64,000 nt of DNA, taken from the NCBI GenBank assembly GCA_947443745.1, contig CANEXL010000002.1, positions 1 to 64,000 on the forward strand, given 5' to 3'. This DNA is from Microbacteriaceae bacterium (GTDB lineage: Bacteria; Actinomycetota; Actinomycetes; Actinomycetales; Microbacteriaceae). Positions 24,534 to 52,413 of the stretch are shown in pieces. The notes beneath the pieces were generated by a model that was given only the letters and a program-made list of their open reading frames with translations, had not been told where the DNA came from and did not search any database. The translations under genes were made by a program, and so were the position numbers. Position 1 is the stretch's first letter. Every line of letters starts with the position of its first letter.

Positions 24534-26606
24534 CTAGTTTTTAGTGCCTGTGACGGACTGGTAGAGCACGTTTGCAAGGAGACGTGAGTACTGATCTGAG
24601 AGGTGGTTATCGCCCCGCCCTCCGGTGACGAACGTTCCGGCAATGGCCTCCGGACAGATGTTGTGGTCAGAGGTGCAGAACCAGTCCCGCGTGTCGACGT
24701 GCGTTGCCCCTGCCGCAAGAGCCGCTTGCCTCTCCCCGTCGAGAAAGCCCCAGGAGAATCCTGTCGAATTCTTGCATGACGACAGCGGGGTCGGAATATG
24801 ACAATTGGGCCCGCCTCCGGGCGATTCTGCGAGGACAACGACAGAGGGCGAGAGCGCTGTAACCTGGTCGAGATAACGCGTGAGACCGGCGTTCCACGTT
24901 GTTCCCCGATCATGTGAATCGGTGGGCAACATCAGGAGCCCCTGTTCCCAGGCCGTCGCATTTGAGGCCACCACGATATCCGGATGCAATTCCTTGAGTT
25001 CCTGAAGCACCCACTCTCTGTGTTGAGCGCACTGCATATATTCGGTCGACACCTTGTCGAGGTGCAGAGCAAAGTCGACTGTTGGGCACTGAGAGTGAGT
25101 CAGGCTGATAACTTTCCATCCCCGCGGCGCGAAGCCGTCGACGAGTCCCGAAATATATTCATTCGCAAATGAATCGCCAATGACGGCCAACACGTGGGTG
25201 CCGCGGGGGTCCCCAAAGGTGCAGGAGGCAACCTTGTCAGCGGAATCAACGTCGAGACACCCCAGGTCCCAATTACTCGGGCGCGTGCGGGGCGCGGATT
25301 TCGGCGGAACATCCCACGTATTTGTGATGACCTGGTGCGCGATGGCAGCCTGCACGGCGCTGACGTTTGCAAACGGCACCCCCAAGGCGGGCGCGTTCGC
25401 CCCCTGCAGCTGCGTGTTGATTCCGACTCCCGTGGCACCAGCTACAAGGACCAGACTCCCGACAGCGGCAAAAATGAGAGCCCGCCGCGTCGTTCGCAGC
25501 TTTGTGCCAAAGCGAAGAGGGTTCTCCACCAGATACTTTGTGGCCACTGCCGCTGCGAGAGTCAGGGCGATGATGACCAGAGCAATTTTCCAGCCCGAGC
25601 TCCGCCCGCGGACAAGCTCAAAAGTGACAATAATCGGCCAATGCCAGAGGTAGATGACGTAGGACAGGCCGCCGATGAACAAGACGGGCCGGAACCGGGC
25701 TAACCGTGCGGGCTCCCAAGGGGTACCGAGATCGCCGACATACAGGAGAACTGCCGTTGCGAGCACGGGCCACAAAGCGGCATATCCAGGAAAGGGTGTG
25801 GCGTCGTTGAAAACCCAGGCTGCCGCGAAGAGGGCGGAGCCCGCACTCCATGCCGAGAAGATGAGAATCACTTTTCGTGCGCGTGAGCGGGCGTGGCTCA
25901 GCACGGGGGGCACGAAGACAATCAGGCCTCCGAGAGCGAACTCCCAGACTCTCGTAAACGTCGAGAAGAATGCCTGCTCCGGATTCGCATCCGTGAACCA
26001 GATAGATGCCACCAGCGATGCGATGAAGATGAAGCCGAGGACGGCCGGAAATAGCCACTGTTGGCCGCGGCCCCTTTTGAGTACCTTCCGGAGGACGAAC
26101 AGTGCCGCTAAGAAGAGCAGCGGCCATAAGAAATAGAACTGTTCCTCTACCGACAATGTCCAGTACTGCTGAATGATCGACGCGGAGTCGCCAGCGTGAA
26201 CATAGCCTGAGCTGAAAAACACGAGGAACCAGTTGGTGACATACAGGGCGCTGGCACCGACGCCCGCCGCAAAGCGAATGACGTCATTGACGGGCACCAC
26301 GACAGCGGTGACGACGAGGGAAAATGCGAGAACAAGAAAACTTGCGGGGAGAAGCCGCCGGATTCGTCGCGCGTAGAACGCCAAGGGTCGAAGGCGATCT
26401 GTCGCGCGAAACTCCCGGTACAGATGGTCGGTGATGAGAAATCCCGAAATGACGAAGAACACGTCCACGCCAATGAATCCGCCGGGCACTTGGGCGGGAT
26501 AGAGGTGATAGCCAAAAACAAAAATTATGGCGAGAGCGCGGAGCCCCTCAATGTCTGTGCGTTTCTTCCCGAGAGGGCGGTCAACGGCGTTGGGCGTGAC
26601 GTTCAC
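24534..26606 (-). CDS. OafA/YrhL-type membrane acyltransferase (acyltransferase 3) with C-terminal SGNH domain
   Basis: 'DIEGLRALAIIFVFGYHLYPAQVPGGFIGVDVFFVISGFLITDHLYRE', 'QQYWTLSVEEQFYFLWPLL', 'LAVIGDSFANEY', C-terminal 'DNHLSDQYSRLLA'. Confidence 0.93.
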   Translation of the reverse strand: MNVTPNAVDRPLGKKRTDIEGLRALAIIFVFGYHLYPAQVPGGFIGVDVFFVISGFLITDHLYREFRATDRLRPLAFYARRIRRLLPASFLVLAFSLVVTAVVVPVNDVIRFAAGVGASALYVTNWFLVFFSSGYVHAGDSASIIQQYWTLSVEEQFYFLWPLLFLAALFVLRKVLKRGRGQQWLFPAVLGFIFIASLVASIWFTDANPEQAFFSTFTRVWEFALGGLIVFVPPVLSHARSRARKVILIFSAWSAGSALFAAAWVFNDATPFPGYAALWPVLATAVLLYVGDLGTPWEPARLARFRPVLFIGGLSYVIYLWHWPIIVTFELVRGRSSGWKIALVIIALTLAAAVATKYLVENPLRFGTKLRTTRRALIFAAVGSLVLVAGATGVGINTQLQGANAPALGVPFANVSAVQAAIAHQVITNTWDVPPKSAPRTRPSNWDLGCLDVDSADKVASCTFGDPRGTHVLAVIGDSFANEYISGLVDGFAPRGWKVISLTHSQCPTVDFALHLDKVSTEYMQCAQHREWVLQELKELHPDIVVASNATAWEQGLLMLPTDSHDRGTTWNAGLTRYLDQVTALSPSVVVLAESPGGGPNCHIPTPLSSCKNSTGFSWGFLDGERQAALAAGATHVDTRDWFCTSDHNICPEAIAGTFVTGGRGDNHLSDQYSRLLANVLYQSVTGTKN

Positions 26607-26770: not shown

Positions 26771-28699
26771 TCAGGTAACGTCGGTGACCTCGCGAAGGCC
26801 GGTGCCCAAACCGTGCGGAGTTTTCTCCCACGAGAAGGGCTTCAGAATGAGCAGGATGAGAGCCCTCCATGCAGCAAAACCGTGCAGGAACCAGTAAATC
26901 GGGTTGAAAATGGCGTAGCTGGCAAGCCTCCAGCCTTGACGACGCCATCCGGCCCACGCTGCCAACACAATGACAATGATGTTGCCGGCGAGGGAATTCC
27001 AGACGGCTGCCTGCGCAAACAACGGCGGCAGATCCAGTGCGGTAAATCTCACGCCGACATAGGTCAAGATCGTGAAGCCCCAGACAATGGGGTATGACAA
27101 GAAGAGCAGCGGAGTCGACGCGATCAGGGCAAAGGTGGAGATGACACTGCGAAACCCCGCCGATCGCGCAAAGCGAAGGGGATAACGAGCGTCGACGAGC
27201 GCGGTCACCATGTAGCCCTTAATCCAGCGCGTTCGCTGCCGAATCCAGGCGGGAATTTCCGAGCAGGCCTCCTCCCACGTGGTGGATTCAATTGTGCTGA
27301 TTCTGAACCCGGCGGTCGCCGCTCGCATGCCAAGGTCAGCATCCTCGGTCACGTTATAAGGATCCCAGCCACCGAGCTCGCGCAGAAGCGACGTGCGAAA
27401 GTGATTGGACGTGCCCCCGAGGGGGATGGGCAAACGAAAGACCTCCATACCGCGCAGCATGCCGTCAAACCACGTCGAGTACTCCAACGTAAACATGCGG
27501 GTCAAAACGTTCTGGCGAGAATTGAAATAGTTGAGCGCCGCCTGAACGCAGACCAGTCGCTTGTCTGACTTGACGTGGGCCGGGTGGTGAATTTTCTGCG
27601 CCCGCAAAAAGGCGTGATGAGCCTTGCGCAACTGATCGACCTCTGGTTTGTCCTCGACGTCAAAGACAACAAGGTACTCGCCGCGAGCAAACATGAGGCC
27701 AAAATTGCACGCTCGAGGTTTCGTCATCGGGGTGCCTGCCGGAACGATCAAGAGCTGCACGTACGCGGGAGGGGCAGCATCTTTGCACGCCTGAATGGTG
27801 AGAGTGTCCTCTTCTTCCAGCAGAATAAGAACTTGCAATTGAGCGGTCGGCCAATCAAGTTCGCCTATGTTGCGGATGACATTGGCAATGACATGTGCTT
27901 CGTGAAAGACCGGCACCAAGATTGTGTAGAGGGGCAATTGCGCATCCGAAGGGGGCTCCTCGGGTAAAGCCGCCGAAGCTAGTCGGGCTCTTTGGGTGGC
28001 AACGGCCGCCGCCACGATCCGGTCATCATGACGGCCGAATGCCCCCACGATGGACGCGAGGGTTCGAAAGCTCACCGCCACGAGAAAGAACACATTTGCC
28101 ATAACGAGGAGGGAAATAATAGTCGCGGACGTCGCCCAGATCATTCCCCCGATCGTCGCCGCCACCAGAATCCAACTGAGAATTTTTTGCCACAGCGCTA
28201 GGCCGGCTTTTGCGGACTTGTCGGGGGCCGTTGTGGCGAGCTCTTCGGCTGCATTGAACAGGAGGCGACTTCGGCAGTTGCGCAGCACGGCTTGGGTGAT
28301 GTCCCAGTCGGTTGTGACGTTGAGCACCACATTTTGCACTGCAAAGGAGGCGCGAACCTGATCCATCATTTTCGGCGTGAACGGAACCGACGTTGCCACG
28401 GTCAGCGTGTCTCCCCGTTGGTGGAGGGGGAGCCATTCGGCCTGAATCAGGTCCTCGGGCTCCCGAGCGTCGAGGATTCCGGCGTCGGGGGCCTCCGTGA
28501 GAAGGTTGACGAAGGGCACACCCAGCTGTTCCGCTAAACAGCCGTACAACGTCAGGCGCGTGACGGCTCCGGCCAAGATGAGGTTCTGCCCGACCCGCCC
28601 GCCTGAGTTTTTTTGCATTTCTAGCGCGAGATCGAGTTGTTCCTGGCTAATCACATTGGCGTCGAGCAAGATCTGACCGAGCTGCCGTGTTTCGGTCAC
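26771..28699 (-). CDS. GT2 polysaccharide synthase with N-terminal GspE_N/MshEN-like domain (XagB/NfrB-like)
   Basis: N-term 'QLGQILLDANVISQEQLDLALEMQKNSGGRVGQNLILAGAVTRLTLYGCLAEQLGVPFV' (GspE_N/MshEN); GT2 core 'VFDVEDKPEVDQLRKA', 'VTEDADLGMRA', 'QRTRWIKGYMV', TM segments. Confidence 0.88.
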   Translation of the reverse strand: MTETRQLGQILLDANVISQEQLDLALEMQKNSGGRVGQNLILAGAVTRLTLYGCLAEQLGVPFVNLLTEAPDAGILDAREPEDLIQAEWLPLHQRGDTLTVATSVPFTPKMMDQVRASFAVQNVVLNVTTDWDITQAVLRNCRSRLLFNAAEELATTAPDKSAKAGLALWQKILSWILVAATIGGMIWATSATIISLLVMANVFFLVAVSFRTLASIVGAFGRHDDRIVAAAVATQRARLASAALPEEPPSDAQLPLYTILVPVFHEAHVIANVIRNIGELDWPTAQLQVLILLEEEDTLTIQACKDAAPPAYVQLLIVPAGTPMTKPRACNFGLMFARGEYLVVFDVEDKPEVDQLRKAHHAFLRAQKIHHPAHVKSDKRLVCVQAALNYFNSRQNVLTRMFTLEYSTWFDGMLRGMEVFRLPIPLGGTSNHFRTSLLRELGGWDPYNVTEDADLGMRAATAGFRISTIESTTWEEACSEIPAWIRQRTRWIKGYMVTALVDARYPLRFARSAGFRSVISTFALIASTPLLFLSYPIVWGFTILTYVGVRFTALDLPPLFAQAAVWNSLAGNIIVIVLAAWAGWRRQGWRLASYAIFNPIYWFLHGFAAWRALILLILKPFSWEKTPHGLGTGLREVTDVT

Positions 28700-30327
28700 G
28701 GGGTCACCCCGCCGCCATTGACGAGTTCATAAATGCGCACGTTCCCCGAGTGAAAAACAACAGCAAATCGAGACACAAAGCTCGCATCATCTTTCAGTTC
28801 GGCCCACACCACGTCGGAAGGGTTTGCGGTGTCCACATAGACCCACGTCGCATAGCTCGACGGTTGGGCAAGCGCCTCGGTAAAACGCGCGCCGGCAAAG
28901 CGTGCGTAGATGCGCTCGAGGGGCACATCGAATTGCATGAGAACCGGATTCGCGCCTTCATCAATGAGGATGTGCCCGGTGCCAATATGGGCGGCGAGCC
29001 AGGTGGCGGCTGCGGTGGAGTCTGCACCCGACAGTGTTGTGGAATATCCCTCACGAATGACATCCACTCGCTGCGTCGCGTCGGAGTAGGTCCAGGCCGT
29101 GAAGCCCACGGCGATCGCAGCAACGACAGCCGCGACCAGGGAGCCAAGAACTCTCCATCGAGTTTCGAAAACGTTGACCAGCACGCCAATGAGAAGAGCA
29201 GCTAACGGAACAAGCCCGGCGGCAAAACGAAGATTGAAGAGACCGGTCGGCAGGGAATGGTCATTGCGTATCGCTGTCTGGCCTAAAAAGAGGCTAAGAA
29301 TCGCAAAAGGATAGAAGAATCCGGGAATCCAAATGAGGAGGGCTGTTGTGGTGAACCCTCTCGTCCACATCGTTGCGATTGCTCCGAGACCGGCAAGAAG
29401 CACAATCGGAACCCCGATAAGCCCCACCACCGTCCAATCGAAGGTATCAAACGAAAGCCACAGGTTTCCTTGCGTCGGTAGCAGCCCTTGAGCGGCCAAA
29501 GCCTGCTGCTGAGCGGCGGCCGAATATTGCCCTTGGGCAAAATCTAGCGGGTGGCCAAAGACGACCCAGTTGAAAGAAATCCACCAGCCCACGGCAACCA
29601 ACGGCACGCTGACAAAAGCAGCGGCGGAGGTGAGGGTCTGCGACACGGAGCGCCAACGACGCCACGACGCGACCATGACGAAGGCTGTTGCCACCGCGAC
29701 AAAGGCCCACCCCTCATACCGGGTGAGAACCGCTGCTGCTGCGGGAGCCCCCGCAAAAATGGCGAGCTGCCCGGGAGAGTGCGGAGGCCTGCCAAAAATC
29801 CACCCCGAAAGTCCTGCCAACGAAGCCAAAATCGCGGCAATCAAGACCGGTTCGGTGAGAGCAACAGTGTGCAGGTACAGCAGGGACGGGTTGAGCACAA
29901 ACACAGCGAGTGTTATCCATTGGGCGAGAGGCCCAAAGCCGATTCGTGCCGTGATGCGCCACAGCGACGCTGCCGAAACTCCGAGGCATCCCGTTCCGAC
30001 AATGGCGGCGGCAAGGCCCGTGTGCCACAACGTGTACGACGTCACCCACGGCAGAAGGAGGAGGTGGGGAAAGGGCAACCAAACGGTGCCGATCTGGGCA
30101 AATCCTGGTTCTTGCGAATCAAAAATTCTGCGCGCAATCGTGAGATGCGACTGGGCGTCGGCATACAGGAGAAGCCAGTTGTTGTGCCACATCACTAGAG
30201 AGAAAGCTGCTCCCACTGCGACCGCCAGAAATGTAGCGAGCAACGTTCCCGCAATTCGTTGACCCTGAAGTGGCGCGGAATCTTCAATAACCTCGCCGCC
30301 GGCAACCCCGTCTTTAGAGGTTGTCAT
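28696..30327 (-). CDS. Polytopic glycosyltransferase, GT39/GT-C-like
   Basis: About 10-12 hydrophobic segments; N-terminal loop 'LLYADAQSHLTIARRIFDSQEPGFAQIGTVWLPFPHLLLLP' typical of GT-C; 4-nt overlap with downstream GT2. Confidence 0.75.
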   Translation of the reverse strand: MTTSKDGVAGGEVIEDSAPLQGQRIAGTLLATFLAVAVGAAFSLVMWHNNWLLLYADAQSHLTIARRIFDSQEPGFAQIGTVWLPFPHLLLLPWVTSYTLWHTGLAAAIVGTGCLGVSAASLWRITARIGFGPLAQWITLAVFVLNPSLLYLHTVALTEPVLIAAILASLAGLSGWIFGRPPHSPGQLAIFAGAPAAAAVLTRYEGWAFVAVATAFVMVASWRRWRSVSQTLTSAAAFVSVPLVAVGWWISFNWVVFGHPLDFAQGQYSAAAQQQALAAQGLLPTQGNLWLSFDTFDWTVVGLIGVPIVLLAGLGAIATMWTRGFTTTALLIWIPGFFYPFAILSLFLGQTAIRNDHSLPTGLFNLRFAAGLVPLAALLIGVLVNVFETRWRVLGSLVAAVVAAIAVGFTAWTYSDATQRVDVIREGYSTTLSGADSTAAATWLAAHIGTGHILIDEGANPVLMQFDVPLERIYARFAGARFTEALAQPSSYATWVYVDTANPSDVVWAELKDDASFVSRFAVVFHSGNVRIYELVNGGGVTP

Positions 30328-32293
30328 CGTTCACGATGCGTCGTTTGCGGGCCCTCACGGCAATCAACCGCGCGACGATGACGAGCAGGAGAACCGCGAC
30401 GGCAATGATGAGCCACAAGGGAATAGTGAACTCGTTGGCGACCGAGGCCTGCGGCACAATCGTGGCCGTGCTCAATGCCAGGGGCGGAAGACCGGGTTGG
30501 GCCACCAGTAGGTCACCGGTGAGCACGAACCATCCGAAGGGATTAGCATCCGCTTGTGTGGCCAGCGAATCTGATAACGCCACACTCTGTGCAACCGGTG
30601 CCGTCCCACCGAGAAGCAGAAGATCGCGCCCGCCAGCGTCGAATGCCTCGAGGGCAGCAAAGGGTCCATCCACCGTGACGGTAAATTTTTTACCGGATGC
30701 GTCAACGGCGCGCCACGCCTCAAATCGCAAGGGGGCCTTGAGGGCAGCAGCATCTTCGGGAGCCGCGCCTATGACAACGCCGGGGTAGCTGGCCTTCGTG
30801 AAGTCGGCAATCGGCACAAGTTTCACGGCCAAGGGCGTCGCCGACGCGCGCTGCAGTGTTGAGATAACGTGCGCGGCCTCACTGAGGGTGTTCTCGCTGG
30901 CTCCTTCCGTGCCAAAGGCAATGCGCACGGTGTTTCCCAGAACCTGCGGGAAGCGTTGCAACCCCACCGCGAGGGATTGGCCAGGGTGGCCGGTAATCGT
31001 GCTCCCCGTGCCGTTGATGTCGAGTTCGGCGGGAAGTGGTGTGGTCGTGCAATAGCCCCCCGGGGGGATTGCCTCCAGCCGAATGGTGAGGGTGTTGTCC
31101 CGCTTGACAAGCGTGGAGTCGATGGTGGCATCCACCGCATACGTATCGGTGTCGGCAATGGATTGGGAGTTGACGATGAGGTCGTTCCAGAGAACGGTGG
31201 CCGTGACGATTCCGCCCGGTGGTGTTGGAGTATTGCCCCCCTCAAGGTGGAGTGTGAATGACGATATCGGGCCACCAAAACGCGACTGGCTCACGGTCGT
31301 GGAATACGTGAGGCGGCCAACTCCCACGAGTGTCGGTTGGGCAGTCCCGAAGTCGGCCAGAGTGAAGATTGAGCCGGGGGTGGCCGTGTTGTTTTCCGCC
31401 AGGGCGGTTACGGTTGGCGCTCCGGCCAGACCCAGAGTCACCCCGCCTAATGCGGCAGCGGCGGCGCTCAGTTCTGTGGCGGGACCGGTCAGCGTGAGCG
31501 TGGGAATGCCAGGATCAGAGAGGGTCAGAGATGTCGTGGCGTCAAAGTTTGCGGCGATGGAGACGACGCGAGCCCCCGGTGCTGGGGGTTGGATTGCTCC
31601 GGAGGAGACGGCCGCCGTGATCACCGTGTCACGCCCGTATTTTGCGGAGAGCGCGGCAACGGCAGCGAGAGCAGCCTCGTTGACAGAAAAGTTTTGCGCG
31701 TCTGGGGTGACGACAGTGATGGTGCGAACGGCGGGGGAGAAGAAATCCGCGACGGTCGTGGGTGGTGTCTCGACACCCGTTGCCTCAATCTGAATGTTTG
31801 AGAGTGTCACCGATGTCGTGGTGTCGTAGCTGCACACATCGTTGAGTTTGGGGTTGAGGCGGTTGAGAACAGTGAGCACCACGGCGGAGTTCACCTCGGT
31901 TCCGGCAGGCAGAGGGAGTTCAAAGGTGCCACCAACGCGAACAGAAACCTCCGCCTGGGTCGTGCCGACACTGATGACCGCCACGCCGTCGCTCGCCGCC
32001 GTCGCGGTGAGAGTGCCACGCAGAGTGACAGGGCTGAGTCCAGTGGGGACGGGCAGCGCCGTGCTCGCCTGGCCCCCTTCTCCGATGGCCGTCAACGACG
32101 TACTGTACGCAAGGGTCTGAGTGAAAGTCGTTGCCACGGCAGGATCAGTTTCTGCACTCACAAGAGCGCGCGCTTCCGGTTGAACGGCCGTCACTCCGAG
32201 AAGTCCGACAAGGAGGGCGACACTGACCCATCCCCCAAGAGACGGCCTTGCCCTAAAAGTCCTCATTCTGCGCTTTTCCTTCCCCAAGGGCAC
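30314..32293 (-). CDS. Cellulose synthase BcsB-like periplasmic/membrane subunit
   Basis: Signal/TM at N-terminus; carbohydrate-binding-like beta-rich halves; 'VVTATVLWNDLIVNSQSIADTDTYAVDATIDSTLVKRDNTLTIRLEAIPPGGYC'; 'SYPGVVIGAAPEDAAALKAPL'; C-terminal TM. Confidence 0.75.
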   Translation of the reverse strand: MPLGKEKRRMRTFRARPSLGGWVSVALLVGLLGVTAVQPEARALVSAETDPAVATTFTQTLAYSTSLTAIGEGGQASTALPVPTGLSPVTLRGTLTATAASDGVAVISVGTTQAEVSVRVGGTFELPLPAGTEVNSAVVLTVLNRLNPKLNDVCSYDTTTSVTLSNIQIEATGVETPPTTVADFFSPAVRTITVVTPDAQNFSVNEAALAAVAALSAKYGRDTVITAAVSSGAIQPPAPGARVVSIAANFDATTSLTLSDPGIPTLTLTGPATELSAAAAALGGVTLGLAGAPTVTALAENNTATPGSIFTLADFGTAQPTLVGVGRLTYSTTVSQSRFGGPISSFTLHLEGGNTPTPPGGIVTATVLWNDLIVNSQSIADTDTYAVDATIDSTLVKRDNTLTIRLEAIPPGGYCTTTPLPAELDINGTGSTITGHPGQSLAVGLQRFPQVLGNTVRIAFGTEGASENTLSEAAHVISTLQRASATPLAVKLVPIADFTKASYPGVVIGAAPEDAAALKAPLRFEAWRAVDASGKKFTVTVDGPFAALEAFDAGGRDLLLLGGTAPVAQSVALSDSLATQADANPFGWFVLTGDLLVAQPGLPPLALSTATIVPQASVANEFTIPLWLIIAVAVLLLVIVARLIAVRARKRRIVNDDNL

Positions 32294-32978: not shown

Positions 32979-34895
32979 TCAGGGACGGCGCGAGATTGCC
33001 GCCAGGAGTGCATCGACGGAATCACGGATAGGAGCACGACCGTCGAGGTGGATGTCCGGTTCGAGAGGAGGCTCGTAGCCCTGACCAACCCCGGTCATTT
33101 GCGTCTGTGATGATGACGCCGCTGCCCGGGCGTACAAGCCCTTGGGGTCACGTTCAATGCACGTCTCAAGTGGAGTGTCGACGAAGACTTCGAGAAAGTC
33201 ACTGTCGGCGAACATCTCCCGCGCCAAATCTCGATCGGCGCGGAAGGGGGACACCAGCGAGACAATCACAATCAGGCCGGCATCCATCATGAGTTGCGCG
33301 GTTCGAGCAACGCGACGAACATTCTCTGCTCGGTCTGCAGGCGTGAAACCGAGATCTTCGCTGAGCGTCTGGCGCACAGCATCACCGTCGAGCACGTAGC
33401 AACGAATTCCCCGCTCGAAGAGGCGCCTCTCCAACTCATCGGCAATGGTGCTCTTGCCACTTCCGGGGAGGCCGGTCAGCCACATCACCCCCGAGCGAAT
33501 GCCATTGAGTCGCTCGCGGGCCTCGCGATCGATCGTGAAGGTGTGACGCGTGACATCCGATTCGCGCTGAAGGGGGCGCAGGCTCATTCCTGCCGCCACA
33601 GTGCGACCCGTCAGCCGATTGACGAGAACGAAGCCACCGGTGTCGTGGCCCGTTGTGTAGGAATCCAGCAGGATAGGGCGATCGCAGGTCACCTCGACGA
33701 GTCCGATGTCATTTACGGTCAAGGGGTGACCAGATAGTTGATCCCCCGTGAGCAGATCCAGCACGAACCGAACATTTTCTACTCGCGCGGGAACCTCGAG
33801 GGGACCCACACGGAGCACATAGGAGTTGGCTGTGTCGAGAGGATCAGGATCCAACCACACGAGCGTTGCGAGGTGGGCGAGCGAAACGGGCAGGTCGGTG
33901 TCAGTCGCGGCGATGATGATGTCACCTCGGCCCACATCGATCTCGCGATCTAGTTCGACAGAAACGGAGGAGCCCGCCATCGCCCACGTGGCGTCCTCCG
34001 GGGACCCCAAGGCGATGACCGTGGCGTTGGTGCCCGACGGCCACACGCTTATGCTCTCGCCCACAGCAATACTGCCGCGCGCAATGTGGCCAGCGAGGCG
34101 CCGGGTTTGCCCCGATCGGATGACCGTCTGTACGGGCAGTCGCAGTGTGGGCAGGTCGACGGCGCCCGCCGGCCGCGCCTGACGGGCTTCGTGCTCTGCG
34201 GCGTGAGCGGCCTCTTGCGCGAGCGCAGCGGATTCGAGGGCGGCGAGAAGCGTCGGGGCATCACCGGCAGGGAGCGCATCAGAGGGGGACACAACGTTGT
34301 CGCCGCGCAAACCACTGAGGGCGATAAAGGTGATTGTCGCCGGTGGCAGTGCGGCGCCCCCGGGATTTGCGAGCGACTGAAGGCGGCCGAAGAGTTCGTT
34401 CCTAATATCTGCAAAGACGCGACTCGGATCCGCAACGGCATCCAGTTTGTTGACCGCAACGATGAGGGAGGAGACGCCCATCAACGTGCAGACGGTGGCG
34501 TGTCGAAGAGTTTGTTCCCGCACTCCCCGCGACGCGTCGACAACGAGAACAGCAACGTTTGCCGTGGAGGAAGCCACCGCCATGTTGCGGGTGTATTGCT
34601 CGTGGCCGGGACTGTCCGCCAAGATTGCGCGCCTCCCCGAGGGAAGCCAGAGGTGCCGGTGGGCGACATCGATGGTGATGCCCTGCTCGCGCTCGGATTC
34701 GAGGCCATCGACCAAGAGTGAGAAATCGAGTGTTCCGGGTTCGGCCCGCGAGCCTGAGGTGGCACTAGCCCGCAGGGAAGCGACAACCTCATCACTGGCA
34801 ACGCTGTCGGTCTCGAAGAGGAGACGACCCAACAATGTGGATTTTCCATCATCGACGGCACCACACAGCACAACACGCAAAAGAAGGGAGGACAT
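32979..34895 (-). CDS. cysNC: Bifunctional sulfate adenylyltransferase subunit 1 / adenylylsulfate kinase (CysN-CysC fusion, NodQ-like)
   Basis: N-terminal GTPase 'GAVDDGKSTLLGRLLFETDSV', 'DSPGHEQYTRNMAVASS'; C-terminal APS kinase 'LTGLPGSGKSTIADELERRLFERGIRCYVLDGDAVRQTLSEDLGFTPADRAENVRR'. Confidence 0.95.
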   Translation of the reverse strand: MSSLLLRVVLCGAVDDGKSTLLGRLLFETDSVASDEVVASLRASATSGSRAEPGTLDFSLLVDGLESEREQGITIDVAHRHLWLPSGRRAILADSPGHEQYTRNMAVASSTANVAVLVVDASRGVREQTLRHATVCTLMGVSSLIVAVNKLDAVADPSRVFADIRNELFGRLQSLANPGGAALPPATITFIALSGLRGDNVVSPSDALPAGDAPTLLAALESAALAQEAAHAAEHEARQARPAGAVDLPTLRLPVQTVIRSGQTRRLAGHIARGSIAVGESISVWPSGTNATVIALGSPEDATWAMAGSSVSVELDREIDVGRGDIIIAATDTDLPVSLAHLATLVWLDPDPLDTANSYVLRVGPLEVPARVENVRFVLDLLTGDQLSGHPLTVNDIGLVEVTCDRPILLDSYTTGHDTGGFVLVNRLTGRTVAAGMSLRPLQRESDVTRHTFTIDREARERLNGIRSGVMWLTGLPGSGKSTIADELERRLFERGIRCYVLDGDAVRQTLSEDLGFTPADRAENVRRVARTAQLMMDAGLIVIVSLVSPFRADRDLAREMFADSDFLEVFVDTPLETCIERDPKGLYARAAASSSQTQMTGVGQGYEPPLEPDIHLDGRAPIRDSVDALLAAISRRP

Positions 34896-35821
34896 TAGAA
34901 GTACCCCTCCAGCTTCTTTCGTTCCATCGAGGAGGCACCTTCGCCGTCGATGAGGCGGCCCGCCCGCTCCGACGTCGTCGAGGTTGCGAGCTCGGCGATG
35001 ATGTCATCGACAGTGAGGGCTTCGCTCTCTTCCGCGGCGCTGAGGGGATAACAGCCGAGGGTGCGAAAACGAACGCGGCGCATCACGGCTTTTTCACCCG
35101 GCTCAAAAATGAAGCGTTCGTCATCGACGACGACAGGCTTGCCCTGTCGCAGCACGGTGGGCCGTTCATCCGTGAAATAAAGGGGCACGACATCGAGATT
35201 TTCACGCCGGATGTAGCGCCAGACATCCAGTTCGGTCCAGTTAGAAAGGGGGAATGCTCGCATGGTCTGACCCGGCGTCAAAACGGTATTGACGGTCGTC
35301 CAAAACTCTGGTCGCTGCCCGCTGGGATCCCACACGTGGCCGGGCCCCCGAAGAGAGAACATTCGTTCCTTGGCCCGGGATCTCTCCTCATCGCGCCGAG
35401 CCCCGCCCAGAGCGATGTCGTAACCGCCCTCATCGAGAGCCTGACGCAGGGCCATGGTTTTCATAATGCGTGTGTACTCATCGGAACCATGATCGAAGGG
35501 ATTGACGCCTGCCGCAAGTCCGGCGGGGTTGGTGTGCACCCGCAAATCAAGCTGGAGCCTGGCCGCCGTTTTTTCGCGAAAATCAATCATTTCGCGAAAC
35601 TTCCACGTGGTGTCAATGTGGAGAACGGGGAGAGGAATGGGCGAGGGCTGAAATGCCTTGGCGGCGAGGTGCAGAAGTACCGTGGAGTCTTTTCCGATGG
35701 AATACAAGATGACCGGACGGTTGAATCCGGCGACCGCTTCACGAATGGCCCAGATGGCTTCGGCTTCGAGTGCGTCGAGCACGCCATCGGCTGCCCGTCC
35801 CGTCTTCGGCACAGAAATCAT
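34895..35821 (-). CDS. cysD: Sulfate adenylyltransferase subunit 2
   Basis: 'VILYSIGKDSTVLLHLAAKAFQPSPIPLPVLHIDTTWKFREMIDFRE', 'DIALGGARRDEERSRAKERMFS'; single-base overlap with cysNC. Confidence 0.96.
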   Translation of the reverse strand: MISVPKTGRAADGVLDALEAEAIWAIREAVAGFNRPVILYSIGKDSTVLLHLAAKAFQPSPIPLPVLHIDTTWKFREMIDFREKTAARLQLDLRVHTNPAGLAAGVNPFDHGSDEYTRIMKTMALRQALDEGGYDIALGGARRDEERSRAKERMFSLRGPGHVWDPSGQRPEFWTTVNTVLTPGQTMRAFPLSNWTELDVWRYIRRENLDVVPLYFTDERPTVLRQGKPVVVDDERFIFEPGEKAVMRRVRFRTLGCYPLSAAEESEALTVDDIIAELATSTTSERAGRLIDGEGASSMERKKLEGYF

Positions 35822-35973: not shown

Positions 35974-37734
35974 ATGGCAACCCTGTTCGACGGCTATGGC
36001 ACCGCACATCAGACCCCCCGCTCCCGCAAGGGTTCGCCGCCGTGGGACGAAATGTTCCCCTCGTTTGGTGACCTCTCGGCTCCGCGCGGAGCCTACAAAG
36101 ACATCTATGGCGCTCTCGCGCAGATGTCCCAAGAAGAGTTGCGCGGCCGCACTGAAGCGCTCGCCAGTAGTTATCTAGCGCAGGGGGTCACATTCGACTT
36201 TGCCGGCGAAGAGCGCCCTTTTCCTCTCGATGCCGTTCCTCGGGTGATCGAGGTCGATGACTGGGCAAATGTGGAAAAAGGCGTCACCCAGCGCGTTCAC
36301 GCTCTCGAGCGTTTTCTCGCGGATGTCTACGGTCCCCAGTTGGCCGTTCGTGACGGGGTCATTCCCGCGGCCCTCATCAGCACCTCCAAGCACTTTCACC
36401 GCCAAGCGGCCGGAATCGTGAGCGCCAATGGTGTGCGCATTCACGTGGCCGGCATCGACCTCATCCGTGATGAAAAGGGTGATTGGCGTGTTCTCGAAGA
36501 CAACGTTCGCGTGCCCAGCGGTGTCAGTTATGTCATTTCCAATCGTCGCGTCATGGCGCAGACTCTTCCCGAGCTGTTTGTCTCGATGAGCGTTCGCCCC
36601 GTGGGCGACTACCCTTATCGCCTCCTCAACGCGCTGCGTGCCTCTGCTCCGGATGGCGTCGATGATCCGACCGTGGTCGTTCTTACCCCCGGTGTCTACA
36701 ACTCGGCCTACTTCGAGCACACACTGCTGGCGCGGCTCATGGGTGTCGAGCTTGTGGAAGGCCGTGACCTGTTTTGCTCCGGTGGTCGCGTGTGGATGCG
36801 AACGACTGCCGGCCCGACCCGCGTCGACGTCATCTATCGCCGCGTCGACGATGAATTTCTCGACCCACTGCAGTTTCGCCCCGACTCCGTTTTGGGTTCG
36901 CCCGGCATGCTTCTCGCCGCGCGCCTTGGCCACGTCACCATTGCCAATGCGGTGGGGAATGGCGTCGCCGACGACAAACTCGTCTACACCTACCTCCCGG
37001 CCCTCATCGAGTATTACCTGGGCGAAAAGCCCATTCTTCCCAATGTCGATACCTGGCGCCTTGAGGAACCGGATGCGTTGGAAGAGGTGCTTGATCGCCT
37101 CGACGAACTCGTGGTCAAGCCTGTTGACGGCTCCGGCGGCAAGGGTCTCGTTGTGGGCCCCGATGCGTCAAAAGACGAGCTCGAAGCGCTTCGCCAGCGC
37201 CTTATCGCAGACCCCCGCGGGTGGATCGCCCAACCTCTCGTTCAGCTTTCGACTATTCCCACGCTCGTTGACGATGGAATGCGCCCTCGCCATGCCGACC
37301 TCAGGCCGTTTGCGGTGAACAGCGGCGACGACGTCTTTGTCCTGCCCGGTGGACTGACCCGCGTTGCGCTTCCCGAAGGCGAATTGGTGGTGAACTCCAG
37401 CCAGGGCGGCGGGTCTAAAGACACGTGGGTGCTTGGCCATAAAGATCGCGATCTCCGCTCTGCGGGCTCTCGTGGTGTCGCCAACATTGTGGCTGATCAA
37501 GCGACGGTGGAGCAGGCGGCCATCGATGAGGCCGAAGCTGAACAGCTGGCCATGGAAGAGGAACTCAACCCCGCAACAGGGGTACTCCATGCCATTCGCG
37601 CCATGCCGGAGTCATCGCCGCAAGACGGGGATGCCGGCAAACGGATGCAGCAACAGGAACAGCAACAGCAGCAGTCGCAGCAGGACCAGCAGGACCAGCA
37701 GGAATGTCAACACGGAGAGGGGTCATCATGCTGA
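35974..37734 (+). CDS. Circularly permuted ATP-grasp protein (DUF404/DUF407 type 2)
   Basis: 'GVTFDFAGEERPFPLDAVPRVIEVDDWANVEKGVTQRVHALERFLADVYG', 'RVLEDNVRVPSGVSYVISNRRVM', 'VVKPVDGSGGKGLVVGPDAS'; Q-rich C-terminus. Confidence 0.93.
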   Translation: MATLFDGYGTAHQTPRSRKGSPPWDEMFPSFGDLSAPRGAYKDIYGALAQMSQEELRGRTEALASSYLAQGVTFDFAGEERPFPLDAVPRVIEVDDWANVEKGVTQRVHALERFLADVYGPQLAVRDGVIPAALISTSKHFHRQAAGIVSANGVRIHVAGIDLIRDEKGDWRVLEDNVRVPSGVSYVISNRRVMAQTLPELFVSMSVRPVGDYPYRLLNALRASAPDGVDDPTVVVLTPGVYNSAYFEHTLLARLMGVELVEGRDLFCSGGRVWMRTTAGPTRVDVIYRRVDDEFLDPLQFRPDSVLGSPGMLLAARLGHVTIANAVGNGVADDKLVYTYLPALIEYYLGEKPILPNVDTWRLEEPDALEEVLDRLDELVVKPVDGSGGKGLVVGPDASKDELEALRQRLIADPRGWIAQPLVQLSTIPTLVDDGMRPRHADLRPFAVNSGDDVFVLPGGLTRVALPEGELVVNSSQGGGSKDTWVLGHKDRDLRSAGSRGVANIVADQATVEQAAIDEAEAEQLAMEEELNPATGVLHAIRAMPESSPQDGDAGKRMQQQEQQQQQSQQDQQDQQECQHGEGSSC

Positions 37735-38657
37735 GTCGCATTGCCGAATCGTTGTTCTGGATCGGCCGTTACGTTGAACGCAGCGACGGAACCTCCCGCA
37801 TCCTTGATGTTCACCTTCAGCTTCTGCTCGAGGACCCTTGGATTGACGAAGACACCGCGTGCCGATCGTTGCTCTCGGTGATGGGGACCGAATTGCCTGA
37901 GGATGAGCTCGTCACCCGAGAGCAGGTCATCGCCATTTTGGCTGTCGACCGTACCCACCCCGCCTCCATCGCCTATGCCATCGATGCCGCGCGCGAAAAT
38001 GCTCGCCGCGCCCGCGAGATTATTTCGACGGAATTGTGGGAGTGCCTCAACTCGACCAACGCGCGCATGCCCAAGAAGGTCGCGATCGACAAGACCCACG
38101 AATTCTTTCGCTACGTTCGCGAGCGTGCGGCGCTCTCGATCGGCATTGTTGACTCGGCGACCAGTCACGACGAAGCCTGGCAGTTCTTCTCCCTGGGCCG
38201 GGCGATGGAGCGTGCGGATATGACCGCCCGCCTGCTGGCAACGCGTCAGTTGACCGAAGCGAGTGGCCCATCCTGGACCACAATCTTGCGCAGCTGCGGA
38301 GCCTTCGAGGCCTACCTTCGCACCTATCGGGGAGTTCCCTCGGCGCGGAACGCCGCAGAGTTCTTGCTCACCGACCGCCTCTTTCCGCGCTCTATTCTCT
38401 ACTCGGTGACCCGGGCAGAGGAATGCCTGCGAGAGATCGATCCCCGCAGCGGCCGTGCCGGGGTGGCCGACCAGGCGCAGCGTCTCCTCGGGCAAATTCG
38501 TAGCGAGTTGGAATATCGCCCCATCATTGAATTGATGGACGACCTCCCGGGCCACATGGAAAACGTGCAGTTGGTCACCAGCGCGGTCAGTGATGCCATT
38601 CGGCTGCGCTATTTTCCCACCAGTGCCGTTCCGGTATGGATCGGAGAAAACTCATGA
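37728..38657 (+). CDS. Alpha-E domain-containing protein (DUF403)
   Basis: 'MLSRIAESLFWIGRYVERSDGTSRILDVHLQLLLED', 'NARRAREIISTELWECLN', 'FFSLGRAMERADMTARLL'; overlaps both neighbours. Confidence 0.93.
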   Translation: MLSRIAESLFWIGRYVERSDGTSRILDVHLQLLLEDPWIDEDTACRSLLSVMGTELPEDELVTREQVIAILAVDRTHPASIAYAIDAARENARRAREIISTELWECLNSTNARMPKKVAIDKTHEFFRYVRERAALSIGIVDSATSHDEAWQFFSLGRAMERADMTARLLATRQLTEASGPSWTTILRSCGAFEAYLRTYRGVPSARNAAEFLLTDRLFPRSILYSVTRAEECLREIDPRSGRAGVADQAQRLLGQIRSELEYRPIIELMDDLPGHMENVQLVTSAVSDAIRLRYFPTSAVPVWIGENS

Positions 38658-39499
38658 GCCGCTTGCGTATCGTGCACCGCACCGGGTTCTCTTACAAGAG
38701 CCCCGCTACCGCGTCCTACAACGAAGCCCGCATGCTTCCCTTCTCTGGCGGCGACCAGTTTGTCTTCTCAGCAAGCCTGGACATTCATCCGTCGTCCACG
38801 CAGAACAGTTACGTCGACTACTGGGGAACGCGCGTCTCCACGTTCGAGGTGCTCACGCCCCACATGGAGCTTTCGGTCACGGCGACCAGTGTTATCGAGG
38901 TGCGACCCGTGCTGCGGGAAACCCCTGATATCTCCTGGGAAGATCTGAAGAACACGGCGCAAGCGACGACACAATTTGTGGAGTTTCTTCTTTTTACGCG
39001 CATGACGGAGCCGCCCGCCGAGGTTGTGGCGCTCGCCGAAGCAATCGTCGCGACGGGACTTTCCCCTGCCGACACTGCGCTGGCAATCTGCCAGGCCGTC
39101 TATGACCACATCACCTACATGCGCGGCGTGACCGGTGTTCACTCCACTGGAGCCGATGCGTGGGCTGCGGGTCAGGGAGTCTGTCAAGATATCGCTCACG
39201 TCACGTTGGGAGCCTTGCGATCCGTGGGGATCCCCGCACGCTATGTTTCGGGTTATTTGCACCCCAAGCCGGATGCGCCTCTCGGGGAAACCATCGTGGG
39301 GGAGTCGCACGCCTGGGTCGAATGGTTCACGGGCGACTGGTTCGGCTACGACCCCACGAACATGATCAATATTGGGGAGCGCCACGTTCTCATTGCTCAT
39401 GGCCGTGACTATCGCGATGTCTCGCCTTTGCGCGGAGTGTACGCCGGGGCCAGCGCTTCCGGTGTTTTCGTTCGGGTAGAGATTACTCGCGAGGCCTAA
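38654..39499 (+). CDS. Transglutaminase family protein (bacterial TGase-like, N-terminal domain + core)
   Basis: 'RIVHRTGFSYKSPATASYNEARMLP', 'GVCQDIAHVTLGALRSVGIPARYVSGYLH', 'GESHAWVEWFTGDWFGYDPTN'; ATGA overlap with alpha-E gene. Confidence 0.93.
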   Translation: MSRLRIVHRTGFSYKSPATASYNEARMLPFSGGDQFVFSASLDIHPSSTQNSYVDYWGTRVSTFEVLTPHMELSVTATSVIEVRPVLRETPDISWEDLKNTAQATTQFVEFLLFTRMTEPPAEVVALAEAIVATGLSPADTALAICQAVYDHITYMRGVTGVHSTGADAWAAGQGVCQDIAHVTLGALRSVGIPARYVSGYLHPKPDAPLGETIVGESHAWVEWFTGDWFGYDPTNMINIGERHVLIAHGRDYRDVSPLRGVYAGASASGVFVRVEITREA

Positions 39500-46882: not shown

Positions 46883-47840
46883 TGCGCCCTCGGTTGAGCC
46901 GGATTCTCAAGAGAAATGACTGAAGGAGGGTGACCCTCGTGTCAATTGAGGGTGACGTCAGCGGGCCAGCAGGACGTGCGCTGGCCTGAGCGCCGACCTT
47001 CCATCCCCGAATTCTCTCGGTCAGCGCTATCGTGTCGCGGTACTTCGCGAGACTTCCGATGCATCGGAGGATCTCAATTGTGATGACCCGAGCAGCAACT
47101 CGGCCGTTGAGAAGGCGATAGGCGCGAATGATGTAGCCGCGGCTAAAAGATGTGTAACGGCGTTGGCGGGCGGAGTGCAGCTCGACGGTTGCGCCTGAGG
47201 CATGGGTGACCCGCGACTGTGGTGCGGCCACAATCTTCCATCGCGCGCTGGTGAGGCGAAGTGCGAGGTCGAGTTCTTCTTGATACATGAAGATGTTCTC
47301 ATCGAACAGTCCCACATCGTCGAGAGCTATTCGACGGAATCCAGCGGCGGCGCCGTAGGCTCCGCAGAGAAGAAACGACTCATCATCGAGGTTCTCAAGG
47401 GGCTCGTTCTTGAGACGATGGTGCCCCGAAAGAGTGCGATCGATGGTGAATCCCAGCGCTTCGATTCGGCCATCTAATGTGAGCACAAGGGGGGCAACAG
47501 AGCCAATGCTCTCATCTTGGTCAAAGGCTGCCGCAATTTCTTCGAGGAAGGCGGGTTCTGCCGTGGTGTCGTTGTTGAGAAGGACAACGATTGGAGCAGT
47601 ACCAGCACGAATCCCGGCATTGCAGGCGGTTCCGAAGCCGCTGTTGTGCGCCAGCGTGACAACGGTCACGTCAGGAAAATAACGCGCGATCTCCTGCCCC
47701 GTTTCGTCCCCTCCGGCATCGTCAACGACAATTACGTTGTGGCGAACCGACTGTTGCCGGAGTGATAACAGGCACTCGCGTGTCAGATTCCACTTGCCGT
47801 GCACGGGGATGATGACATCAATCGAAGCGTCGTGTCTCAT
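46839..47840 (-). CDS. Glycosyltransferase family 2 (rhamnosyltransferase-like)
   Basis: 'IDVIIPVHGKWNLTRECLLSLRQQSVRHNVIVVDDAGGDETGQEIARYFPDVTVVTLAHNSGFGTACNAGI'; start MRHDAS, 4-nt overlap with upstream gene stop. Confidence 0.88.
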   Translation of the reverse strand: MRHDASIDVIIPVHGKWNLTRECLLSLRQQSVRHNVIVVDDAGGDETGQEIARYFPDVTVVTLAHNSGFGTACNAGIRAGTAPIVVLLNNDTTAEPAFLEEIAAAFDQDESIGSVAPLVLTLDGRIEALGFTIDRTLSGHHRLKNEPLENLDDESFLLCGAYGAAAGFRRIALDDVGLFDENIFMYQEELDLALRLTSARWKIVAAPQSRVTHASGATVELHSARQRRYTSFSRGYIIRAYRLLNGRVAARVITIEILRCIGSLAKYRDTIALTERIRGWKVGAQASARPAGPLTSPSIDTRVTLLQSFLLRIRLNRGRTTRHRTTSTRRTPQ

Positions 47841-49057
47841 GACGGTGTGACCTCTTTCGCCACCCATGCTGCGATTCGGGCGTGAAAAATCTCCATGGAG
47901 AAATCGCGAGCACGCTGGTGACAGGCCGCCGCCGTGATCCGAGGAATGGTCGCCCAGGCGCGGCGCATTTCGGTGGGCGTGAAGTCGCCGAGGAGAATCC
48001 CCGTGACGCCGTCAACAACGGTTTCCGCTGCGCCGCCCCGACGCAGAGCAACGACGGGCGTTCCTGTGGCCATTGCCTCGACGGGCATAATGCCGAAGTC
48101 TTCCACGGCAGGAAAAATGTAGGCCTCGGCTCGGCGATACAGCTCCCGAAGAAGTGAGCGGCTCGGGGTGTCGACGAAATGAACTCTGCCGGCATGGCGT
48201 AGCGCACGTTTTTCTAGGTGAGCACGCTCGGGGCCGCTGCCGGCCAGGACGACATCCGTATTTGTAGCGATCCCGAAGTCAATTACGAGGTCGAGCCTTT
48301 TGTAGGAAATGAAACGGGATGCTCCTAAGACGAACTGCCCAGGGAGGCCGCTAAGGGTGAGACGGTCGGCCCGTGTGAGAGGGGAAGGCGACCCCGAATC
48401 TTGAGCGGAACCGGAACCGGAACCGGAACCGGAACCGGAACCGGAACCGGAACCGGAACCCGAACCGGTATCGGAGTCGGTGACCGCGCTGCTGCCGGCG
48501 AAGTAGTCGACGTCGACGGGAGGGTAGATCACGACAGAGTCCCGCCCCCAGTAAGCGCGAACACGCTCCGCGACGGCCTTACTGTTGACCGCAATGCTGG
48601 TCAGTTCCTGGGCGCGGCGGCGGTCAAGGGCTCTTAGCGGCAGAGCGACCAATCGGGCCACAAACGATGACCCGCGTTCGTCGAGCTCAGGCGACCAGAC
48701 ATAGCGGGCTGGTGTGTGAACATAGGCCAGCCGGGGAACATTTCTGGCAGCACCGCGAAATCGAACGTGGTGAGCAAAGAGGTGAGTGCTGGCGAGACTC
48801 CATGTGGGAGGTGCGGGGAGTGGGTTCCTCACGCTGCGCCAGACGGCCGGCATCAGAAGCAGTGCCAGTGCCTTTGCCCCTCGTAATGGTGTTCGAGCGA
48901 GCCAGGTTTCGTGAACGCGCCCGGCGGCAAATCGTTGGGGAGCGTCATCCCACAAGCAGACGATGGGGGCATCAGGAAAGATGCGGCTCAGTTGCTCCAG
49001 AACGTTCTCCGAGCCGCCCGTCTTCGCGAGCCACTCGTGCACCAAAATCCCGGTCAC
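47837..49057 (-). CDS. Glycosyltransferase family 4 (GT-B) with internal (SG)n linker
   Basis: 'ILVHEWLAKTGGSENVLEQLSRIFPDAPIVCLWDD', 'VYIFPAVEDFGIMPVEAMATGTPVVALRRGGAAETVVDGVTGIL'-type GT4 motifs; GTG start overlapping upstream stop. Confidence 0.87.
   Translation of the reverse strand: MTGILVHEWLAKTGGSENVLEQLSRIFPDAPIVCLWDDAPQRFAAGRVHETWLARTPLRGAKALALLLMPAVWRSVRNPLPAPPTWSLASTHLFAHHVRFRGAARNVPRLAYVHTPARYVWSPELDERGSSFVARLVALPLRALDRRRAQELTSIAVNSKAVAERVRAYWGRDSVVIYPPVDVDYFAGSSAVTDSDTGSGSGSGSGSGSGSGSGSGSAQDSGSPSPLTRADRLTLSGLPGQFVLGASRFISYKRLDLVIDFGIATNTDVVLAGSGPERAHLEKRALRHAGRVHFVDTPSRSLLRELYRRAEAYIFPAVEDFGIMPVEAMATGTPVVALRRGGAAETVVDGVTGILLGDFTPTEMRRAWATIPRITAAACHQRARDFSMEIFHARIAAWVAKEVTPS
48407..48460. 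repeat. Perfect tandem hexanucleotide repeat (GGAACC)x9
   Basis: 54 nt of uninterrupted GGAACC read directly from the sequence, followed by degenerate copies; encodes (Ser-Gly)n on the minus strand. Confidence 0.97.
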
Positions 49058-50073
49058 ACCGAAACCGAATTCGTCGCCAGAACGCGCAAAAGAGTCTCGT
49101 TCACGATGGCCGCCACGCGATCCCACGAGTATTTCTCCCACCAATCGTGAGAGAGCTCGCTGGGGGCCAGGGGTCCGAGCTCCACGAGATGATCGAGAGC
49201 GTTGGCCCAGGATGATCCGCGTGTCGCATCCGCTACGACAACCGACGTTGAGTCACAGATCTCGGCCACACTTTCGCACTCTTTCCAGTGTGCAACGCGA
49301 GTTCCGCAGGACATAGCCTCCAGGGCGGGAAGGCCGAATCCTTCCACCAGAGAAGGCACCACGGTGCCGACCGATCCCCGATAAAGAGCTGCGAGCTCCT
49401 CGTCGGTCACGCCGGATTCCACACTCACGCGCTCTTCCAAGCCACGTTCACGGATCAGGGATGCCGCCCGAGCAGTATCGGGTGTGACAATAACGAGATC
49501 GTATTCGGGCCGCAGCACGCACGCATCGAGCAATGTTGCGAGGTTCTTGTGGGGTCGGATGCCGCTCACGAACACAAACGTGGGGCGCGTGAACGACCGT
49601 CGAGCACCCTCTCTGGTGAAAGCTGCCGAACGACCGCATCCGGTAATGACAATCTCCACGTTCGCGGAACCGACCCATTCCCTCATTTCGTTCGCCGATG
49701 CCTGGGAGACAGTCAGCACGACACCGCTGCGCTTCACGACCATCGGTAACAAGAAGCGAAAGTACAGGGCGCGAAGGGGGGAAATCCGCGAGGAATGATG
49801 GAGGTGAATGAGGTCGTGCATGGTGATGACCTGGCGAGCTCGTGTGATGCTCAGGTTGAAGCCGGGGGAGTAGAGGACATCTTGCGGCGAAAGAGCCAGG
49901 CGCTTTCGGGAGAGGACTCCACTCATGCTCATGGGTTTACCCGCCACCGCAAGGGGTTCGGCGGCAAGGCTCAATCGAGAAAGAACCTCGGTCGCATAAC
50001 GACCGATACCGTGGGCCCCCGACCAGCGGTCATCGACAATCACACGGCCAGGGCGACGCTCGAGCGCTGGCAT
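49054..50073 (-). CDS. Glycosyltransferase family 4/1 (GT-B, mannosyltransferase-like)
   Basis: 'DDRWSGAHGIGRYATEVLSRL', 'FVFVSGIRPHKNLATLLDACVL', 'VPSLVEGFGLPALEAMSCGTRVAHWKECESVAEICDSTSVVV'; start at MPALERRP. Confidence 0.87.
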   Translation of the reverse strand: MPALERRPGRVIVDDRWSGAHGIGRYATEVLSRLSLAAEPLAVAGKPMSMSGVLSRKRLALSPQDVLYSPGFNLSITRARQVITMHDLIHLHHSSRISPLRALYFRFLLPMVVKRSGVVLTVSQASANEMREWVGSANVEIVITGCGRSAAFTREGARRSFTRPTFVFVSGIRPHKNLATLLDACVLRPEYDLVIVTPDTARAASLIRERGLEERVSVESGVTDEELAALYRGSVGTVVPSLVEGFGLPALEAMSCGTRVAHWKECESVAEICDSTSVVVADATRGSSWANALDHLVELGPLAPSELSHDWWEKYSWDRVAAIVNETLLRVLATNSVSV

Positions 50074-50075
50074 CG

Positions 50076-51539: not shown

Positions 51540-51683
51540 GGCGCCCTCACTGAGTCGAAATTGGTTAACTTAAATGATTACCTGATTCTACATAGAGGAT
51601 TCCGCCCTTCGGAGAGTTGCTTCAGAGTTCTGGGCGAGCCGAGGAAGTGTGCATTCTGCGGCCTGCGGTAAGTTTGCGAGGTG

Positions 51684-52403
51684 ATGAGCAAAATCAGTTT
51701 TGGCAGCAGGAGAGCGGGTTGGCTGACGGCAGCCGCCGCTGGCCTTTTTGTCTCGATGGCACTGGTTGCGCTGCTTGATTTTTCCCCTCCACTGGCCGTA
51801 CCTCCGGCCCTTGCTGAGGCGATCGGGTATCTCGTCGTCTTCATTCCGTTGGTGGCCGCCATCACCTTTGCCACTCTTTTTCGAGGACAGCGGTCGCTGG
51901 CCCGGGATTTCGGGTTTTCGGCTACGTGGACAGATGTTGTGCTCGGCGTTGCGCTCGGACTCGCTTTGCGGGTTGCTGGAATGTGGTTCGAAGTTGCGAT
52001 GTATGGCATTCGCCTCAACGGAGGCTCGACGGGGATTCCACGAGCCCAGTGGCTCGCGTGGGTGCTTTTGGCGGTCATTGCGCCCATCATTCTGGCGCCC
52101 CTTATTGAAGAACTCTTCTTTCGCGGTCTTGTCCTTCGCGGCCTCCTGAGGTGGGGCACGCGCAGAACTCTCTCCCCGCGGCTTTCGGCGGTGGTGGCCA
52201 TCGTGGTGAGTTCGCTGATTTTCATGCTGGTGCACCTGATTGGCGTTCATTCCCCGCGACAGGTCATTCTCATTGGCGTGATGACATTCGTCGTGGGATG
52301 CACGGCAGCGGTCATGGCCGTGAAAACCGGGCGCCTGGGGGCAAGCTTCGCCTTGCACATGACCTACAACGCCACCATTCTGATTCCCGCCCTTCTCGCC
52401 TAA
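51684..52403 (+). CDS. CPBP family intramembrane metalloprotease (Abi/CAAX-like)
   Basis: 'APLIEELFFRGLVLRGLLRWG' (EExxxR) and 'FMLVHLIG' plus multiple TMs. Confidence 0.9.
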   Translation: MSKISFGSRRAGWLTAAAAGLFVSMALVALLDFSPPLAVPPALAEAIGYLVVFIPLVAAITFATLFRGQRSLARDFGFSATWTDVVLGVALGLALRVAGMWFEVAMYGIRLNGGSTGIPRAQWLAWVLLAVIAPIILAPLIEELFFRGLVLRGLLRWGTRRTLSPRLSAVVAIVVSSLIFMLVHLIGVHSPRQVILIGVMTFVVGCTAAVMAVKTGRLGASFALHMTYNATILIPALLA

Positions 52404-52413
52404 GGTAATCCAC

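Follow-up and report, generated by a model that had tools for sequence, protein, structure and literature searches.

A BcsB-like/GT-C/MshEN-GT2 gene triad in Microbacteriaceae and related actinobacteria, a candidate c-di-GMP-gated exopolysaccharide synthase

A 64,000-nucleotide stretch of a Microbacteriaceae genome (assembly GCA_947443745.1, contig CANEXL010000002.1, positions 1 to 64,000; hereafter, the window) carries at 26771–32293 of the minus strand three intact open reading frames (ORFs), which encode a BcsB-like protein, a polytopic GT-C type glycosyltransferase, and a family 2 glycosyltransferase with an N-terminal MshEN domain (MshEN-GT2). We interpret this triad, with a probability of roughly 0.74, as a synthase-dependent exopolysaccharide machine that is gated by cyclic diguanosine monophosphate (c-di-GMP) and equipped with an extracytoplasmic decorating enzyme. 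The ORF coordinates agree with an earlier reading of the window from its letters alone (the sequence-only reading), which had described three co-directional genes with overlapping ends (Table 1). The host is a cold-loving actinobacterium, and the same trio is found in dozens of actinobacteria from soil and plants, mostly near c-di-GMP-making enzymes. The source genome was assembled into 166 contigs totalling 2.0 Mb, at about 88% completeness; its nearest relative among the genomes compared is Alpinimonas psychrophila DSM 23737.

The BcsB-like protein consists of a signal/transmembrane helix, two repeats of a carbohydrate-binding and a ferredoxin-like domain, and a C-terminal membrane anchor (amino acids about 626–658); judging from the start context, the ATG at amino acid 10 (about 32266) is to be preferred as the start of its ORF. 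This protein alone matches neither a Pfam family nor a PDB sequence, and hhalign yields no significant alignment with a single E. coli BcsB. Homologs and structure nevertheless settle the identity: 13/33 homologs match Pfam BcsB (PF03170, best E-value 1.9e-7), and all 22 top PDB matches of the AlphaFold model (pLDDT 77) in Foldseek are BcsB (E-values from 9e-26 to 6e-17; TM-score about 0.57 for E. coli BcsB chains), hence the protein is BcsB by predicted fold. A failure to match BcsB, one of the two outcomes that were to refute the sequence-only reading, did not thus come about. The GT-C protein itself also has no Pfam match; PMT_2 is matched by 7/31 of its homologs (best E-value 2.4e-8), and the confident Foldseek matches of its AlphaFold model (pLDDT 84) are solely GT-C enzymes, i.e., ALG12, DPY19, OST, ArnT, PMT, and AftB. 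Invariant in the GT-C alignment are the motifs YxDxQSHL, with Asp57 in the first outer loop, and TEP, with Glu159. Tested for membership in the GT-C superfamily, the protein shows both the fold and the conserved acidic residue of the first loop (Asp57), and its modelled structure identifies it as a GT-C glycosyltransferase.

The MshEN-GT2 protein is composed of the MshEN domain (amino acids 6–58), a pair of transmembrane helices (about 173–211), a BcsA-like GT2 domain (about 250–500), and more transmembrane helices at the C-terminus. Pfam assigns Glyco_trans_2_3 (E-value 1e-18) and MshEN (2.5e-10); in a profile search against PDB, the glycosyltransferase domain matches BcsA and the N-terminal part matches MshE, PilB, and PilF, and hhalign gives a probability of 97.7 for the alignment with BcsA. 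The TED and QRTRW motifs are conserved in all 37 aligned members of the GT2 family, and DxD is also conserved in relatives; in place of FFCGS of BcsA stands an invariant PLGGTSNHF, common to MshEN-GT2s of other phyla. By definition (PMC5013675), MshEN contains two motifs of 24 residues each, separated by 5 residues. The window domain fits this pattern (11/11 consensus residues in motif 2 and 9/11 in motif 1), and the NCBIfam c-di-GMP_motif model (NF053729) is above cut-off at amino acids 6–58. PilZ is found neither in the window GT2, nor in the source genome, nor in the eight triad genomes searched. The assignments of the sequence-only reading (BcsB-like protein, GT-C-like protein, BcsA/NfrB-like GT2 with QRTRW, and MshEN instead of PilZ) are thus all borne out.

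When GTDB genomes were searched with the alignment of GT-C proteins, 34 loci were retrieved, two of them the A. psychrophila copies, in Alpinimonas, Subtercola, Rathayibacter, Paenarthrobacter, Pseudarthrobacter, Arthrobacter, one metagenome-assembled genome, and Propionibacterium. GT-C is followed by a gene of the MshEN-GT2 family at 34/34 loci and preceded by the BcsB-like gene at 32/34 (one exception is a locus on a truncated contig); the Propionibacterium copy has no detected BcsB and just a remnant of MshEN. Distance matrices of the three proteins correlate with r of 0.92–0.99. Since the order is kept across genomes and the matrices agree, the triad is not a chance arrangement: it is a real module, and the co-occurrence across genera, whose absence was to have refuted the sequence-only reading, is observed. 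The distribution of the BcsB-like gene in Microbacteriaceae is patchy (13/300 genomes, one of them with a weak fragment). In a more distant class member, the 1.4-Mb genome G043 (locus L099), MshEN-GT2 lies on the strand opposite to BcsB and GT-C. One ORF of locus L011 and several antisense ORFs were discarded as high-GC shadow frames.

The neighborhoods of the triads also point to c-di-GMP. A GGDEF or GGDEF-EAL gene is present in the fetched flanks of 25/34 loci, upstream of the triad in Rathayibacter and some Subtercola, and downstream in Paenarthrobacter and Alpinimonas. Among 11 triad genomes, with 1–5 GGDEF genes each and some triad spans estimated from domain positions, 10 have a GGDEF gene no more than 10 kb from a triad, vs. 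0.29 expected at random; in the eleventh, the triad is at a contig start and its upstream side is unseen. With one genome per genus, the probability of such proximity is about 2e-6. Nearly all counted genomes have one MshEN for each triad. Contig C26 of the source genome carries another triad (L008:8472-15915), with a GT2 65% identical to that of the window and a GAF-GGDEF-EAL gene directly downstream. A. psychrophila has two triads, one orthologous to that on C26 (its C6 locus) and one further copy, and nothing corresponding to the window copy was detected there. The c-di-GMP connection proposed by the sequence-only reading is, therefore, strengthened by GGDEF/EAL neighbors elsewhere, which could not be seen from the surroundings of the window copy.

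In the proposed mechanism, the GT2 would polymerise a sugar from a nucleotide-sugar at the cytoplasmic face and thread the chain through its own transmembrane channel, and the membrane-anchored BcsB homolog, probably in complex with the GT2, would take up the chain and guide it outside. The N-terminal MshEN would fill the role played by PilZ in BcsA, so that binding of c-di-GMP turns polymerisation on. The outward-facing GT-C may then use a polyprenyl-phosphate donor to attach sugars, as side residues, to the chain as it emerges or to its primer.

Clues to such a donor are seen in relatives. At loci L092 and L094, GT-C carries a fused N-terminal GT2 similar to dolichol-phosphate mannose (DPM) synthase, which suggests a polyprenyl-phosphate donor. 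Triads of Subtercola and Rathayibacter adjoin a UbiA-type decaprenylphosphoryl-phosphoribose (DPPR) synthase, above the NCBIfam cut-off, and DprE1-like and DprE2-like genes, highly significant yet below their cut-offs; in Subtercola, a PAP2 phosphatase gene is also adjacent. In the set of 300 Microbacteriaceae genomes, DprE1-like genes are found in 7/12 triad genomes vs. 3/288 others (p = 2e-9; by genus, p = 0.04). As a separate observation, the genes at the Subtercola/Rathayibacter triads outline a polyprenyl-phospho-arabinose pathway, and no mycobacterial-type wall arabinan is expected in these hosts. We tentatively suggest, at somewhat less than even odds, that a dedicated polyprenyl-phosphate-dependent GT-C, held with GT2 and BcsB, decorates the nascent chain of a c-di-GMP-gated synthase on the outer side of the membrane, the residue being arabinofuranose made via DprE1/DprE2/UbiA in Subtercola and Rathayibacter. 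If so, a donor of the mycobacterial wall type would serve a signalled biofilm polymer in these genera.

Several observations weigh against c-di-GMP gating and donor supply as outlined, mostly for the window copy. No GGDEF/EAL gene is found in the 64-kb window around the triad, so c-di-GMP would need to be supplied in trans, and just two GGDEF genes are found in the source genome (an 88%-complete assembly). Motif 1 of the window MshEN lacks the consensus Arg1 and Gly10. The distant class members L097 and L098 have GT2, BcsB, and GT-C without MshEN; hence, c-di-GMP control is not universal. Neither DprE1 nor a UbiA-type DPPR synthase is found in Alpinimonas genomes, so the donor clue informs the family and not the window copy; the earlier suggestion that GT-C acts on lipid-linked sugars gains support from the DPM-synthase-like fusions and the polyprenyl-phosphate-arabinose genes beside some triads. 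The family could be regulated by c-di-GMP with the window copy having lost this control through a degenerate MshEN and the lack of a local cyclase, its polymer being constitutive or transcriptionally controlled and the C26 paralog the signalled one. We consider this rather unlikely: besides the changes in motif 1, it can draw on the contrast between the window and the C26 paralog with its GGDEF-EAL gene and on the missing counterpart in A. psychrophila, but the c-di-GMP model is above cut-off, motif 2 is fully intact, and E. coli NfrB, whose MshEN deviates at the same two positions, binds c-di-GMP with a dissociation constant near 1 uM (PMC8669469), so that the changes in motif 1 weigh little against binding. 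A role of MshEN in assembly or localisation, like that in pilus ATPases, instead of c-di-GMP sensing, with the GGDEF proximity incidental, seems very unlikely. The imperfect motif 1 would agree with it, as would the small genome G043, which keeps the triad with its MshEN-GT2 and has no GGDEF genes, so that its MshEN receptor lacks an evident cyclase partner; such a role would leave unexplained the 10/11 genomes with a nearby GGDEF gene and the several independent arrangements of GGDEF genes and triads.

The nature of the product is subject to similar considerations. GT-C enzymes are often builders of wall glycans, as the AftB-type Foldseek matches recall, and DprE/UbiA neighbors are known from arabinan synthesis; accordingly, GT2 and GT-C might build a glycolipid anchored in the membrane or a glycan of the cell wall (of the lipoglycan or teichoic type) with the BcsB-like protein as a scaffold only. 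This we regard as improbable, as BcsB together with a QxxRW GT2 is a hallmark of processive secreted polymers and c-di-GMP control is typical of the biofilm matrix. The chances are slimmer still for a true cellulose (beta-1,4-glucan) synthase BcsAB in which MshEN merely substitutes for PilZ: the BcsB fold and the BcsA-like glycosyltransferase domain are shared, but PLGGTSNHF is invariant instead of FFCGS, the locus has no PilZ, BcsZ, or BcsC, and the conserved partnership with GT-C points to a substituted polymer or a heteropolymer. Secretion of a decorated polymer under c-di-GMP control is the interpretation that we prefer.

Among known systems, the triad is nearest to the xag-like/sfz stalk clusters, then to NfrB, and then to BcsAB. 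In the xag-like/sfz/sfb clusters of Ferriphaselus and Mariprofundus, to which xagABCD of Xanthomonas is related (PMC3609779), the pairing of BcsB and MshEN-GT2 has been published, and a link to biofilm or stalk polymer and c-di-GMP proposed (PMC4643136, PMC8250860). By published description, their BcsB-like gene adjoins a GT2 with an N-terminal T2SS-E/MshEN-type domain, as in the triad, and there is a third conserved protein (XagC/Sfz3) of about 500 amino acids; these clusters have a GH10-like XagD/Sfz4 and outer-membrane hosts, whereas the triad carries GT-C between BcsB and GT2. No glycoside hydrolase family, and hence no counterpart of XagD/Sfz4, is seen among the scanned window neighbors. 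The combination is not unique to this organism. NfrB of the E. coli NfrB-NfrA-YbcH system (PMC8669469, PMC8669472) likewise combines GT2 with MshEN, and its exopolysaccharide is activated by c-di-GMP; however, its MshEN is C-terminal and not N-terminal, outer-membrane NfrA and YbcH take the place of BcsB, and there is no GT-C. Compared directly, NfrB and the window GT2 are similar in MshEN only, and no NfrA-like gene occurs among the neighbors examined. BcsA-BcsB shares with the triad the BcsB fold with a C-terminal anchor and the glycosyltransferase core with TED and QxxRW, and differs in PilZ, BcsZ, BcsC, and FFCGS, instead of which the triad has PLGGTSNHF and the extra GT-C. As the defining features of both BcsAB (PilZ, FFCGS) and NfrB (C-terminal MshEN, NfrA) are absent, we class the triad among synthase-dependent exopolysaccharide systems under c-di-GMP control, as a new form from actinobacteria.

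The triad GT-C has the overall fold and the first-loop acidic residue in common with ArnT, AftB, ALG12, and PMT, and, unlike them, has a fixed place in an operon beside the genes for BcsB and MshEN-GT2. The same components are found in Bacillota, in one operon of the Geobacillus plasmid pEF60063-1 (CP128455, L065) with genes for an NTP-transferase, an annotated BcsB, an MshEN-like GT2 (38% identity), and a GT39/GT-C protein; here, the order is BcsB-GT2-GTC, and the profile of actinobacterial GT-C proteins does not pick up the plasmid GT-C. This plasmid is conjugative, and the exopolysaccharide operon is mobile with it.

To our knowledge, most of what is known of c-di-GMP outputs in actinobacteria concerns the development of Streptomyces. 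Micrococcales include soil bacteria of the Arthrobacter type and plant bacteria of the Microbacteriaceae; no dedicated c-di-GMP polysaccharide effector of this order and no description of the actinobacterial triad were found in the literature searched (subscription journals being outside its coverage). Given a GGDEF gene beside the triad in almost every counted genome and one MshEN per triad, the module may be a main output of the whole c-di-GMP signalling network in triad-bearing genomes. The GT-C partner would give a synthase of the BcsAB type an extra, extracytoplasmic decorating step.

Table 1. Features of the window triad, its surroundings, and related loci (window coordinates unless a locus is named)
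Feature	Position	Strand	Evidence
BcsB-like gene	30314..32293	(-)	AlphaFold, Foldseek, homologs vs. PF03170
GT-C type polytopic glycosyltransferase gene	28696..30327	(-)	AlphaFold, Foldseek, PMT_2 in homologs
MshEN-GT2 gene	26771..28699	(-)	Pfam, NCBIfam, PDB profile matches
MshEN c-di-GMP-binding domain coding region (predicted)	28271..28684	(-)	PF05157 match 28271-28525; NF053729, amino acids 6-58
BcsB/GT-C frame overlap, 14 nt (translational coupling)	30314..30327	(-)	ORF coordinates
GT-C stop/GT2 start overlap, 4 nt, GTGA	28696..28699	(-)	ORF coordinates
AT3-SGNH acyltransferase, co-directional, 164 nt downstream of triad	24534..26606	(-)	Pfam
True GT2 frame of L011	7165-9108	(-)	
GT-C/DPM-synthase-like GT2 fusions beside GT2 without MshEN	L092:7228-9528, L094:7377-9551		
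UbiA, DprE1-like, and DprE2-like genes at triads	L011:3328-4831, L027:12783-16410, L034:12246-15742		

Two neighbors of the window triad were considered as parts of the module and rejected. The AT3-SGNH acyltransferase, with a possible role in glycan O-acylation, is missing beside the other triads tested; CysD and CysN-CysC (an adenosine phosphosulfate kinase fusion), co-directional and directly upstream at 32979-35821, are also missing beside other triads. Genes for a GT4 glycosyltransferase, an exopolysaccharide sugar-phosphate transferase of the WbaP/WcaJ type, and a DUF4012 protein at 47837-54276 likely form a second exopolysaccharide locus; the candidate genes at 47-54 kb are not DprE1/DprE2. 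Genes of a circularly permuted ATP-grasp protein, an Alpha-E protein, and a transglutaminase stand in a row at 35974-39499. In another actinobacterium, an exosortase gene of the EpsH type (L096:9330-11099) is adjacent to genes for a GT2 and for a remote relative of GT-C.

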